Shown in pieces: positions 15,375 to 64,000 of a stretch of DNA of 64,000 bases (position 1 is its first letter; every line of letters begins with the position of its first letter). The notes below the pieces were generated by a model that was not told the origin of the DNA, made no database searches, and saw nothing but the letters and a program-made list of their open reading frames with translations. Location: NCBI RefSeq assembly GCF_002754935.1, contig NZ_CP018092.1:558001-622000 (forward strand). The letters run 5' to 3'. This DNA comes from Thermostichus lividus PCC 6715 (GTDB lineage: Bacteria > Cyanobacteriota > Cyanobacteriia > Thermosynechococcales > Thermosynechococcaceae). Position numbers and translations under genes: made by a program.

Positions 15375-15485
15375 GGTAATAAATTCCTCTTTTCACAAGT
15401 AAAACCACTGTGTATTTTAGCGAATTAGGGCGTTGCACAATTTGACTTCTCTCCTCCTTGAAAGAGAGGGGATTCCCAAAGGATG

Positions 15486-16775
15486 CTACGCAACGGGCTG
15501 AAGCCGCGTTGCTTCGCTTTTCCCTTGAGCTGTCACCCACAACTTAATACGGGTGGGGGCAGTCAAAGACCCCCTACCAACTCCGCTCAGACTCAATCCA
15601 AGCATCGTCGCTACTTTACGCAGGATGTTGGCAGCGCCATTACAATCCGCGTTGATGTACCAATTCTGAGCAGTCCTGAACAAGCCTCGCTTCGTCCGCT
15701 TCCCCGATGACTTCCAGCTATCAGGTTTTTCACCGAATGTCGGCAAAAAGTCACCATCCACAAACGATGCTTGAGAGGTATACGACTCCTCAGTTTCAAC
15801 AAACTCTATCCCGTACTGCTCCGCTAATTGAGCAATCCGCTCTTTCAGTCTCGCAGTTGGGATCTGCACAAACTTCTGATTGGTCTTCTTGCCTAGGTTG
15901 GAACCGTCCTTTTGCTGCTGGTTCCAGCCAAATACAATCCGACCAATCCGGTTACGGGTGCAATGGTCAATCACAATCCTAGCCGCTTTGTTCACTGCAT
16001 CACGTATCTGCCGATTGCGCTTCTCAGTGAGTTGTGCCAGTCGCTTTGACCAAAAGCCTTGAGGCTTACCTTCTTTCAGCTTGGCAATTTGCTTGTTGTA
16101 CCAGCGGTTCAACGATTTCAGGTGCAGTCCATCCACAATGAAGCTGGTTCCCACATTGCTGACGCAGGTGAGCCAGTTGTTTAATCCCGAATCGATGCCC
16201 AGCACCCGCATCGGGTCTACATCAATCTGAACGGGGTTCAGACGATAGACAAACTCAGCGTAGAAACACCCATTGCGCGGCAGAATCCGCAGTTCCTTGA
16301 TGTCCTCAAATTTGAGATTGGAGGGCATGGGGACAGTGAACGAATCAATCTGAAACCACACTTTCACTAACTGCCCCAGCGGAACCCGGATCATCCCATC
16401 AACCAACTTCAGCGCTTGTTTGGGATAGCTGACTACTGCCAACCCTCCCTTCTTGCGGTAATTTGGCATCCTGGGTTTCTCTGCCAGTTCTCCACCTCGC
16501 CACAGTTTCAACAATGCTCGGTAGGACTTAAACGACTCGTAGACCGAAATCAAGGTTTGCTGTGCAGCCTGGGAGTAAAGAGCTTGGAAGTGCTTACTGG
16601 TCTTGTATTCGTAACTCAGGCTATGCTTGCCAATCCACTGCCCGGTCTTAAAGTGCAGTTGACGAGCATAGTAGATGCCCTGATTGGTTAGCTTGTTTGC
16701 CTCAGAGCAGACAAATTCCATCACCCCCTTAAGTTCGTTATTGGGGTTGAGCAAAACTTGCTGACATCCAAACAT
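15486..16775 (-). CDS. tnpB: TnpB RNA-guided nuclease, zinc-finger-less type
   Basis: Starting at MFGCQQVLLNPNNELKG (ATG at 16773-16775) the protein has 429 residues. The RuvC-like acidic residues sit in VLGIDSGLNNW (D), VETEESYTSQASF (E) and YINADCNGAANILR (D). The region between the last two lacks the CxxC pairs of the usual zinc ribbon and instead reads DGDFLPTFGEKPD, as in the IS1341-like subgroup. The last 28 or so codons (SLTAPTRIKLWVTAQGKSEA...) lie in the part conserved with the non-coding copy B, that is, probably inside the guide-RNA scaffold. Biochemically unproven here. Confidence 0.88.
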   Translation of the reverse strand: MFGCQQVLLNPNNELKGVMEFVCSEANKLTNQGIYYARQLHFKTGQWIGKHSLSYEYKTSKHFQALYSQAAQQTLISVYESFKSYRALLKLWRGGELAEKPRMPNYRKKGGLAVVSYPKQALKLVDGMIRVPLGQLVKVWFQIDSFTVPMPSNLKFEDIKELRILPRNGCFYAEFVYRLNPVQIDVDPMRVLGIDSGLNNWLTCVSNVGTSFIVDGLHLKSLNRWYNKQIAKLKEGKPQGFWSKRLAQLTEKRNRQIRDAVNKAARIVIDHCTRNRIGRIVFGWNQQQKDGSNLGKKTNQKFVQIPTARLKERIAQLAEQYGIEFVETEESYTSQASFVDGDFLPTFGEKPDSWKSSGKRTKRGLFRTAQNWYINADCNGAANILRKVATMLGLSLSGVGRGSLTAPTRIKLWVTAQGKSEATRLQPVA

Positions 16776-23577: not shown

Positions 23578-23619
23578 GAGAAAGGTAAGCACAAAGCTCA
23601 ATATCGATTTGAGTGGAGT

Positions 23620-23797
23620 GTGTAGAGGGGCTGTGGCAGCCCCTTCTAAGGTCAAGTTAGAGCAGATTGGCTTTGCTCTAGCCTAACTCAGAGAAGCCTC
23701 GCCGTTCCACGGCGGGGAGTGTCACCGTTTCTTTACCGTTGACCAAACCCATTGGGATGCAAGCCCCGTCCTTCAGGACGGTGGAGAATGTCAAGTT
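23620..23797. repeat. Cluster of palindromes and IS200/IS605 right-end-like scars
   Basis: The 303 bases between the ISL3 element and ispG hold no gene. They contain a hairpin GGGGCTGTGGCAGCCCC, a long imperfect inverted repeat around GTTAGAGCA...TGCTCTAGCCTAAC, and two hairpins each followed by a cleavage-site-like tail: CTCGCCG-TTCCA-CGGCGGGG then AGTGTCAC (23697-23724), and CCGTCCTTCAGGACGG then TGGAGAATGTCAA (23763-23793). These look like leftover ends of two different small elements. Confidence 0.5.
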
Positions 23798-35879: not shown

Positions 35880-36115
35880 TTGACACTCCCACCGACTAAA
35901 GTCGGGGGATTCTTACGCAGTCCACAAACGAACTCGTAAAGGCGTGAGCAAACCGCCCCTACACAGTTCCTTGAGGCAAAGCCCCAAAGTTCTGCTTACT
36001 TGTAACAACTGTCGCCGATTGGGTTTTTCACCAAGGATGGCGATTAAGTATAGATTAGCACAGAGCAACTAAAGTTGCTAGGTAGCTTTTCCTCCCCGTA
36101 CTTTAGTACGGGGCT
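35880..36115 (-). mobile_element. Non-autonomous IS200/IS605-like element
   Basis: This 236-base block lies between two gene ends and has no coding capacity. On the minus strand it ends with a hairpin and GGTGGGAGTGTCAA (35880-35893). The about 90 bases next to that end match 58672-58765 nearly base for base, apart from paired changes in the hairpin stem. The other end (36090-36113) has the hairpin CCCCGTACTTTAGTACGGGG and matches, inverted, the left side of the element at 1539. It looks like a chimera of two end types or a deletion derivative. Confidence 0.65.
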
Positions 36116-36135
36116 ACCAAGCTATCCCTCTGTGT

Positions 36136-58411: not shown

Positions 58412-58478
58412 AACCTCCCGACCCCACTATGGGCTAAGGCTCTATCCCTACTGTGACATACTCTCAGGGGTGATTGAC

Positions 58479-58765
58479 AGCCTCCCCACCGCAAGCGGAC
58501 GGGGTTTTCCGCTCACATTCGATAAAAGTGAACGGGCGATGACCACACCCCACATCTGCGGGGCATCGAACCCCTTGATGAAGGCACTTGCATCCCGATG
58601 CTCACCTGACCTTTTGGGCGGTGAGCGACAGGTAGAGCGCGAGGCTTACCGATTGCCGCAGAACCGTACTACACGGAACTGTGTAGGGGCGGTTTGCTCA
58701 CGCCTTTACGAGTTCGTTTGTGGACTACGTAAGAATCCCCCACCTTTAGGTGGTGGGAGTGTCAA
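58479..58765 (+). mobile_element. Non-autonomous IS200/IS605-like element with both ends
   Basis: The left end follows TTGAC (58474-58478) with the hairpin CCCCACCGCAAGCGGACGGGG. The right end has the hairpin around CCACCTTTAGGTGG and finishes GGGAGTGTCAA. No transposase or tnpB frame lies inside; a long open frame through it shows no family features. Its right 90 bases are shared with 35880-35975. The spacing suggests a stripped element that keeps the ends and the presumed guide-RNA scaffold. Confidence 0.7.
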
Positions 58766-58821
58766 ACCCAGCGATCGCCCCGCAGAGGCAGAACTGCATC
58801 GACAGCCACTGCGGGATGCGC

Positions 58822-61343: not shown

Positions 61344-61781
61344 AGGAGTGATGTGGGCGGGCTAAAACCCCTCCGCTTTAGCGAGGGGATACAGCCAACT
61401 CAGGGGGCTTTAGCCCTCTCTATGTGTTAAACTAGAGACGTGGAAAGTAGGCGTATCAACTACGCGAAGAAACATCCTAGTACGGAGAAATCCCGGCAAG
61501 TAAGTCACTACCGCTTTGGCGGCAAGCCTAAACCACTGCAAGCAATGGCAGGATGTTGAGCGTATCGAATTGGCTAGTGTTGAAAAGCGCGAAACCACGA
61601 ACCGAAACATAAACGTAGTCCCAATAGCAGAAATGCTTGAGGTGAGTAGGGGGTCTTTGACTGCCCCCACCCGCATTAAGTTGTGGGTGACAGCTCAAGG
61701 GAAAAGCGAAGCAACGCGGCTTCAGCCCGTTGCGTAGCATCCTTTGGGAATCCCCTCTCTTTCAAGGAGGGGAGAAGTCAA
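61344..61781 (+). mobile_element. Copy B: 438-base non-autonomous derivative of the tnpB element at 15442
   Basis: Preceded by TTTAT (61339-61343), the left end with its two hairpins matches copy A through GGGGGCTTTAGCCC. The last 140 bases, from TAGGGGGTCTTTGACTG to GTCAA, match copy A with only about two differences by eye. The middle 200 bases hold a different, decayed tnpB-like tail (VERIELASVEKRETTNRN...). The element therefore keeps both ends and the RE-proximal region expected to encode the guide-RNA scaffold, but no enzyme. Confidence 0.82.
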
Positions 61782-62081: not shown

Positions 62082-62090
62082 AGAAATGAA

Positions 62091-62205
62091 TCGTTCATCT
62101 CTCTCAGGACATCAGTAAAACGCGTTTAAGACGTTAGTGACTCGTCAGCGTTGTTCCTGTAGTCAGAGACGGAAGTAGGGAAAGTGATCCCGAAGGAACG
62201 CGCCT
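62091..62205 (+). promoter_or_regulatory. Glutamine riboswitch (glnA RNA motif type) in the gifB leader
   Basis: The conserved blocks of the glnA/Downstream-peptide RNA class are present in order: CGTTCATC (62092-62099), GGAAGTAGG (62171-62179) and CGAAGGAACGCGCC (62191-62204), with a variable hairpin between the first two. It ends about 40 bases before the gifB start. This class binds L-glutamine and, for gifB in Synechocystis, turns expression on when glutamine is high. Confidence 0.88.
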
Positions 62206-63474: not shown

Positions 63475-64000
63475 CTACGGACAGAGCGCGGGCTTTCGGT
63501 AGCCCTGCAGTTGGCACGCCAACCACGCTCCGTAGGTGGCGTCAGCCATACCTCTAGGCTGGTTTACAGGCAGCTCCAAAAGCGCAATTAGATTCGCACC
63601 GTTAAAGTCAGCCTCCCCCTGCCAACCGCAATGGCCACAAGTAAACCCCTTGCCACTTCGATAAGACTTGCCTTGCACTGGATGAATGTGCAGGCATTGG
63701 TGACAGATTTGCGAGGTATATACCGGATTAACCGCAAGCACCTGAACGCCTGCCTGAAGTGCCTTATAGGCGATAAACAAACGCAATTGAAAGAATGCCC
63801 AACCACTAGAGCTGCGTCGCTCGGTCTTGTTGCGCGGCAGCTTGTTGGTGCATTCTCTGATACCTGTCAAATCTTCCACAGCAATTACAGCATTCAAGGC
63901 GTTAGCCCGCTGCACAATCGCTTTGCTGATTTGATGGTTCAACCATTGCTGATAACGGCGATTTTTACCCGACAACCGTTCCAAACTCTGTCTTGCCCTG
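63475..64000 (-). CDS. tnpB: TnpB RNA-guided nuclease, zinc-ribbon type (partial, N-terminus outside window)
   Basis: The C-terminal 175 residues of a TnpB are present: the RuvC Glu in VIAVEDLTGIRE, the zinc ribbon VYTSQICHQCLHIH and FTCGHCGWQGEADFNGANLIALL with the last catalytic Asp. The frame is open through the right edge of the window. Downstream (63440-63474), a CGCTC-GAGCG hairpin and GGGTAGTTTACC form a likely right end. It differs clearly from the zinc-finger-less TnpB at 15486 and represents a second TnpB lineage. Confidence 0.9.
   Translation of the reverse strand, partial: RARQSLERLSGKNRRYQQWLNHQISKAIVQRANALNAVIAVEDLTGIRECTNKLPRNKTERRSSSGWAFFQLRLFIAYKALQAGVQVLAVNPVYTSQICHQCLHIHPVQGKSYRSGKGFTCGHCGWQGEADFNGANLIALLELPVNQPRGMADATYGAWLACQLQGYRKPALCP

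Follow-up and report, generated by a model that had tools for sequence, protein, structure and literature searches.

Probable IS605-type right ends with paired hairpin differences, one of them a likely mosaic of two subfamilies, in Thermostichus lividus PCC 6715

Transposons of the IS605 type, such as IS608 and ISDra2, carry a Y1 transposase gene divergent from tnpB, possess terminal hairpins and insert 3' of a fixed short motif. IS608 uses a GAAT/TCAA guide pairing. The elements described here share this organization, with TCAA at the right end and GAAT at the foot of the right hairpin, but their motif is ACAC rather than the TTAC or TTGAT given in the available part of PMC8612924, and their left and right hairpins differ in sequence. 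Non-autonomous derivatives known as PATEs, for example in Halanaerobium hydrogeniformans, combine a left-end hairpin with the final stretch of tnpB and a complete right end, and are presumed to move in trans (PMC7290912, available sections); the present family contains elements of the same build, but in 14 copies rather than one and alongside an additional 91-nt form that lacks the left-end hairpin. The right end and the 3' end of tnpB also form the reRNA or omegaRNA of TnpB, with the flank as guide; in ISDra2 the scaffold overlaps the tnpB end and the last approximately 16 nt of the reRNA are flanking DNA (PMC8612924, as excerpted). Our family resembles these systems at the level of sequence, but 18 of its 20 copies in the genome are not attached to the family's tnpB. 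The available text of PMC11870625, on a TnpB gene drive, contains no mention of non-autonomous elements that we could find. According to extracts of PMC10711439, some TnpBs carry a repositioned RuvC2 glutamate (Ealt), defined as lying six residues before the first zinc-finger cysteine, and the pro-Fanzors, one such group, are exclusively cyanobacterial. A template-switch mechanism for hairpins has been described in RNA genes by Monttinen and Loytynoja 2022 (PMC8794818); in the part of that paper at hand, a compensatory change combined with a loop inversion is named as what would be the strongest support, and such cases as extremely rare.

The window analyzed here is a 64,000-nucleotide stretch of the T. 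lividus chromosome (contig NZ_CP018092.1, positions 558,001 to 622,000), and coordinates refer to the window unless stated otherwise. It contains two closely similar pieces, one in a copy on the forward strand (L001) and the other in the right-end part of a longer, inverted copy (L009), with the following features.

58671–58674, + strand: ACAC directly 5' of L001, a putative target or transposon-adjacent motif found at the same place in 18 of 19 whole copies
58675–58765, + strand: 91-nt mini-element L001, a right end only, without the usual left end; one of three of this length (L001, L015, L016)
58684–58708, + strand: predicted scaffold helix 1 (TAG.GGCG...CGCC.TTA), with 100% of cells paired in the 19 own copies and the G006 copy
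58711–58726, + strand: tentative scaffold helix 2 (AGTTC...GGACT), with 100% of cells paired and U-G, C-G and U-A at one pair
58737–58757, + strand: right-end hairpin with tip ACC-TTTA-GGT and an unpaired T at 58754, from alignment pairing and RNA and DNA folds
58762–58765, + strand: TCAA, the last bases of the element and 3' limit common to the copies, a candidate right cleavage site
58766–58781, + strand: flanking DNA, the would-be guide of an RNA from the L001 end, by analogy with the ISDra2 reRNA (PMC8612924, in part)
36132–36135, − strand: ACAC directly 5' of L009, from comparison of copy limits
35880–36131, − strand: 252-nt two-ended non-autonomous element L009, of the palindrome-associated type and identical to L007
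36094–36113, − strand: left-end hairpin of L009, CCCCGTAC-TAAA-GTACGGGG, its loop inverted relative to TTTA copies; only two loop bases differ from L004 over 252 nt
35888–35908, − strand: right-end hairpin of L009 with tip GAC-TTTA-GTC, from alignment pairing and RNA and DNA folds

The first-pass annotation had described the elements at 58672–58765 and, inverted, at 35880–35975 as nearly identical over about 90 bases apart from a paired change in the hairpin stem, and both observations stand for 58675–58765 (+) and 35880–35970 (−). L001 and L009 differ at one site in alignment columns 4–64 (58676–58736), at four sites in the hairpin (columns 65–85) and at none in columns 86–93, with one further difference in columns 1–3 at the left limit. 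The four hairpin sites make up two complete base pairs (pairs 70–79 and 71–78), A-T against G-C and C-G against A-T, which convert the tip ACC-TTTA-GGT of L001 into the GAC-TTTA-GTC of L009. Each hairpin comprises a 5-bp upper stem, a 3-bp lower stem and one unpaired T, with one extra pair at the foot in energy folds. Both fold better than shuffled sequences, as RNA (z = -3.60 and -4.05; 0/200 shuffles as good for each) and as DNA (z = -3.29, 0/200, and -3.74, 1/200). The word GGGAGTGTCAA alone is a weak marker: allowing at most one mismatch it has three matches in the window, a number reached in 10 of 100 shuffles. Helix 1 also holds in a mixed alignment, where each pair is broken by 0 to 2 of 24 sequences, while the AGTTC arm of helix 2 has an alternative upstream partner, GAACT, which is used in the minimum-energy fold.

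The 94-nt unit that includes L001 has 20 strong copies in the chromosome (2,659,739 bases, one contig; E 3.2e-21 or better). Among 10 other genomes of the genus, searched at E <= 0.001, it occurs once, diverged, in G006 (77% identity, E 5.6e-12), with two partial matches in G010 (E 2.1e-4). The copies take a few discrete forms: two full-length elements of 1783 and 1784 nt, thirteen of 252 nt, one of 253 nt, three of 91 nt and a 65-nt remnant. All 19 whole copies end in TCAA and are preceded by ACAC (18) or ACAT (1), in keeping with the insertion of IS200/IS605 transposons 3' of a fixed tetra- or pentanucleotide. In the full-length copies, at chromosomal positions 2644401–2646184 and 1587620–1589402, left end, tnpA on the opposite strand, tnpB and right end are continuous. 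TnpA of the first copy matches NF033573 (126.4 bits, cut-off 55) and PF01797 (E 2.9e-33) and shows, by eye, the HVH motif and downstream tyrosine of a Y1 (HUH) transposase, and its TnpB matches NF040570 (174 bits, cut-off 100). The second tnpA has an open frame of 107 aa against 172 in the first, so perhaps a single copy makes the whole transposase.

Hairpins lie at both ends of these elements, as in IS200/IS605 transposons generally, except that the 91-nt copies lack the usual left-end hairpin. The 252-nt and 253-nt copies fit the definition of PATEs, since they carry no intact gene and their ends match those of the 1783- and 1784-nt copies. The 91-nt copies, including that at 58675–58765, fall outside this definition for want of the left-end hairpin; they start at GGAACTGTG, inside the tnpB end of the full element, and are informative about the minimal end that the transposase requires.

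These observations bear out the first-pass suggestion of an IS200/IS605 end: matching tnpA and tnpB genes are present in the genome, the right end is matched by a covariance model, and its apical pairs covary. Its statement that the window contains no matching transposase is correct for the subfamily of L001 and L009, but a sister TnpB, 55% identical, does lie inside the window. The same-family tnpB that it proposed to look for lies outside the window, in the two full-length copies, which carry both tnpA and tnpB. With these two copies at hand, we have discarded the idea of chance similarity or a non-mobile cellular RNA, which is extremely improbable: no Rfam family reaches its gathering threshold at either site (a tRNA and a glutamine riboswitch are the only window matches), which speaks for it, but there are 20 copies with defined ends and the unit is nearly absent from the 10 other genomes of the genus.

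We therefore consider it very likely that the two pieces are IS605-type right ends of one family, with a hairpin of dual role and movement in trans, and that L001 is a mosaic. As single-stranded DNA, the right-end hairpin is probably the end gripped by TnpA; as RNA, it is probably the 3' hairpin of a guide-RNA scaffold that uses the host flank as guide. The gene-less window copies are most likely moved in trans by the full-length chromosomal copies. Under this explanation the tips may vary while pairing is mostly kept, because the hairpin must fold.

The right end is very probably a guide-RNA (reRNA/omegaRNA) scaffold. A conserved, structured right end adjoins tnpB across relatives, as expected of a TnpB reRNA/omegaRNA. 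The tnpB frame stops 4 nt before the right-end hairpin, so that a scaffold at this place would overlap the end of the gene, as it does in ISDra2 (PMC8612924, in the available part). B-type copies, defined below, have a TGA in the tnpB frame within the right-end stretch and, read by eye, still keep the hairpin. No promoter-like site for a free-standing guide RNA was found in the 252-nt copy of the window, and a promoter search of a further copy, L011, returned only two promoter-like sites, both on the opposite strand.

The family's TnpB resembles those with a RuvC-II glutamate at the alternative place. What we take to be the usual RuvC-II place shows by eye no acidic residue in any of the 13 aligned proteins. 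D190, E325 and D372, a candidate D-E-D catalytic triad of an RNA-guided nuclease, are invariant in all 13 (alignment A3, the family's TnpB and 12 relatives), and by eye and position E325 would be the replacement for the usual glutamate. E325 sits six residues upstream of where the first zinc-finger cysteine would be, the same spacing as in the Ealt TnpBs, cyanobacterial pro-Fanzors included (PMC10711439, in extract), but the family has DHG or DPG at RuvC1 and an alanine at the cysteine place in 13/13, and the published CxxC pattern is therefore matched by position only.

Covariation is commonly taken to prove that an RNA or DNA structure is under selection, and the first-pass annotation had seen a sign of such selection in the two window copies. 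At the level of the family, the structure is well supported. In the 19 own copies and the G006 copy (12 distinct rows), 98.3% of cells are paired, a value not reached in 500 shuffles, and sliding the partners by 1 to 3 columns lowers it to 38.8 to 60.4%. Within this set, neither the pairs changed on both sides (43/500 shuffles as high) nor the further pair types (415/500) are exceptional. The evidence for covariation comes from relatives: among 20 distinct pairs of tip arms, with related sequences treated as independent, 54 of 60 cells are paired, against a mean of 25.8 and a maximum of 39 in 10,000 shuffles, and structure is therefore kept while sequence drifts. Of the 187 loci behind this count, 142 were parsed successfully and gave 66 distinct sequences; 45 unfitting loci were left out, and several loci are one place fetched twice. 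A spurious row (L150) was dropped and eight hairpins without a recognized loop were set aside, while three of the six unpaired cells (types CCC/GCA and TTC/AGA), which look like misplaced loop anchors, were kept in the count.

Other genera show this right-end layout, too, behind their relatives of tnpB. A search at E <= 1e-40 places TnpB relatives in 63 of 386 sampled cyanobacterial genomes, and most of 30 fetched right ends have the same layout with different tips, some with a longer insert before the hairpin. A pattern fixing only the base of the stem and the upstream words occurs at 26 places in 14 of the 386 genomes, and its reversed control at none. A covariance model built with the tip left unpaired matches the right end in 54 of 60 genomes, which were chosen by hand and include some that supplied model sequences. 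RNAalifold on the mixed alignment A1 returns 11 pairs and no tip helix, because the tips do not align.

Copies with unpaired stem changes, which the first-pass annotation had named as counter-evidence to selection on the structure, do exist. Two of the 20 own copies, L017 and L018, have single unpaired changes in the lower stem; their differences from L011 number 3 and 1, respectively, over 252 sites. Two cells are unpaired in the G006 copy, and single-sided changes also occur among close relatives (L153, L157, L170, L267). The first-pass interpretation is thus partly supported, its structural reading being right for the family and not proven by the pair L001 and L009.

What sets these two apart is best explained by the subfamily structure of the copies. 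Alignment A2 comprises the 19 whole own copies and the G006 copy, with the 65-nt remnant L020 set aside, and nine A copies (tip GAC/GTC) and nine B copies (tip ACC/GGT) were grouped beforehand by tip. Eleven columns are fixed between the groups, four of them in the tip and seven outside it. Over these columns L001 reads AAAAAAABBBB, A-type at the seven and B-type at all four tip sites. Relative to L002 it has no differences in columns 4–64 and four in the hairpin; relative to L015 and L016, the other two 91-nt copies, it has ten differences in columns 4–64 and none in the hairpin, and these two alone share its columns 1–3 (ACG). The partner copy at 35880 is plain A. The element at 58675–58765 is therefore best read as a B-type mini-element with an A patch, and on this reading the paired tip difference arose earlier, between the subfamilies, and was joined to a nearly identical body by mosaicism. 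That covariation in two copies speaks for selection is not supported, since the tip is a fixed difference between A and B, and L001 joins an A body to a B tip. We propose that A and B subfamilies coexist in this genome and that the middle of a B mini-element (at least columns 20–55) was replaced by A sequence, most simply by gene conversion. An A body with a B tip could instead be the ancestral state of the A branch, but the A in column 55 groups L001 with L002, L003 and L006.

Pure stepwise compensation, the account of the first-pass annotation, in which two independent single mutations per pair are kept as TnpA and/or TnpB need the stem, strikes us as rather doubtful. In its favour, pairs two and three, counted from the loop, take all four Watson-Crick forms among relatives, and one-sided, pairing-compatible changes occur in helices 1 and 2 of the own copies. 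The tip of L001, however, matches that of the B copies as one unit. In L169 and L156, which come from two genomes of a single genus, the bodies, GTAG through GAAT, are identical while two tip pairs have changed; this disfavours stepwise change, although recombination would account for it too.

Some hairpins of the family also differ by exact loop inversions, which suggest a mutational process acting on the hairpin as a unit. L004 and the identical L007 and L009 agree over 252 nt except in the left-end loop, TTTA against TAAA, its exact reverse complement. Four of 252 sites set L012 apart from L011 and L014, and each of them falls within or beside the left-end hairpin; they comprise a TTTA/TAAA loop inversion, a repair of the stem from T.G to T-A, and a single base next to the stem. 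In a second TnpB family of this genome, of 392 aa (L042, L045–L051), the hairpin behind tnpB reads CCCCTGAC-TTCA-GTCAGGGG in two of eight members and has the inverted loop TGAA in the other six. A third inversion lies upstream of tnpB in Microcoleus sp. CAWBG506 when compared with related Oscillatoriales.

Such changes are what template switching would produce, a process in which an arm or loop is copied from the other side of the hairpin in a single event, with neither selection nor intermediates; it would be compatible with our preferred explanation, and as the process that rewrites these hairpins it is possible, if somewhat less probable than the opposite. The exact inversions of the family's left end and of the hairpin behind tnpB in the 392-aa family bear its pattern, and the L012 case, which couples inversion with stem repair between near-identical copies, is the kind of event described in PMC8794818 (available sections), albeit in transposon hairpins here and in RNA genes there. 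A literature search returned, among the matches listed, no paper joining IS200/IS605 hairpins to template switching. The A/B change at the right-end tip does not fit this process: going from GAC-TTTA-GTC to ACC-TTTA-GGT involves no inverted loop and no simple copying of one arm, and the right-end loops of the family in this genome are not inverted (20/20 read TTTA or GTTA). For L012, conversion by a donor resembling L007, together with a single point change, is an alternative account. In Microcoleus the hairpin is at most a candidate terminal one, and L345 there has a non-inverted loop, TTGA. The scan that yielded the two inversions of this genome also gave 28 non-inversion types with changes of two or more bases and 40 single-base types, a hairpin's two strands and its different loop lengths being tallied as separate types, so inversions are not the sole loop change.

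Because the loop inversions look like template switching, pairing alone is not proof of selection; within one genome, structural constraint, mosaic copies and template-switch-like inversions yield the same signal. Since IS605-type elements pass through single-stranded DNA, we raise tentatively the further idea, on balance an unlikely one, that their terminal hairpins are hotspots of template switching, where a single event would replace base pairs of the tip or invert its loop. If so, ends would diversify yet stay foldable, and the mutation process would maintain part of the structure alongside selection. The rate of such inversions could be measured on the high-copy IS605 ends of cyanobacteria.

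The insertion sites can be compared with relatives for 16 of the 19 whole insertions (all but L006, L018 and L019). Both flanks are found together in G008, the closest relative, at six sites. At three of these (L002, L012, L017) there is no large loss compared with G008; at the others (L008, L014, L016) about 220, 509 and 93 nt of the relative's DNA are missing from the T. lividus genome. At L008 and L014 the same gap is seen against a second genome, G001, and queries with the three missing stretches found nothing significant elsewhere in the T. lividus genome (best E 0.30). In the relatives, the right flank at these sites is preceded by ACAC at L008, ACGC at L014 and AAAC at L016. The losses fit an insertion coupled to deletion of the DNA between two target motifs and, equally well, a pair of insertions that later recombined. 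Insertions that cost about 93 to 509 nt of host sequence are relevant to the way in which such elements remodel genomes. For L004 and L009, the left and right flanks map well away from each other in G008, which points to rearrangement at these elements, and at the remaining eight compared insertions only one flank was matched. Because the aligned flanks are only 72 to 92% identical, the insertion point is not placeable to the base at most sites.

Related right ends and other features occur in the window and elsewhere in the genome.

15442–16772, − strand: sister IS605-type element with TnpB at 15531–16772, the 55% identical protein noted above, and a related right end (model R1, E 8.2e-5)
61636–61781, + strand: further right end of the sister type (R1, E 2.1e-4)
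23612–23725, + strand: weak match to the right-end model, ending GGGAGTGTCAC (E 0.0051)
C1:1359612–1359705 (chromosome), − strand: further diverged right end, L308, behind a tnpB-like stretch, with tip TGCC-TTTA-GGCA
63592–63795, − strand: another TnpB C-terminal domain (PF07282, Cas12f1-like_TNB), near the right edge of the window
62090–62204, + strand: glutamine riboswitch (Rfam RF01739, 51.5 bits)
468–539, + strand: tRNA, from the Rfam search

A single base of the 3' arm distinguishes the hairpin at 61636–61781 from the one in the element at 15442. A partial match to a Y1 transposase lies near the sister element at 15442–16772. Upstream of the 91-nt copy L001, 54 nt at 58473–58526 are 89% identical to L064, the surroundings of another Y1 transposase gene.
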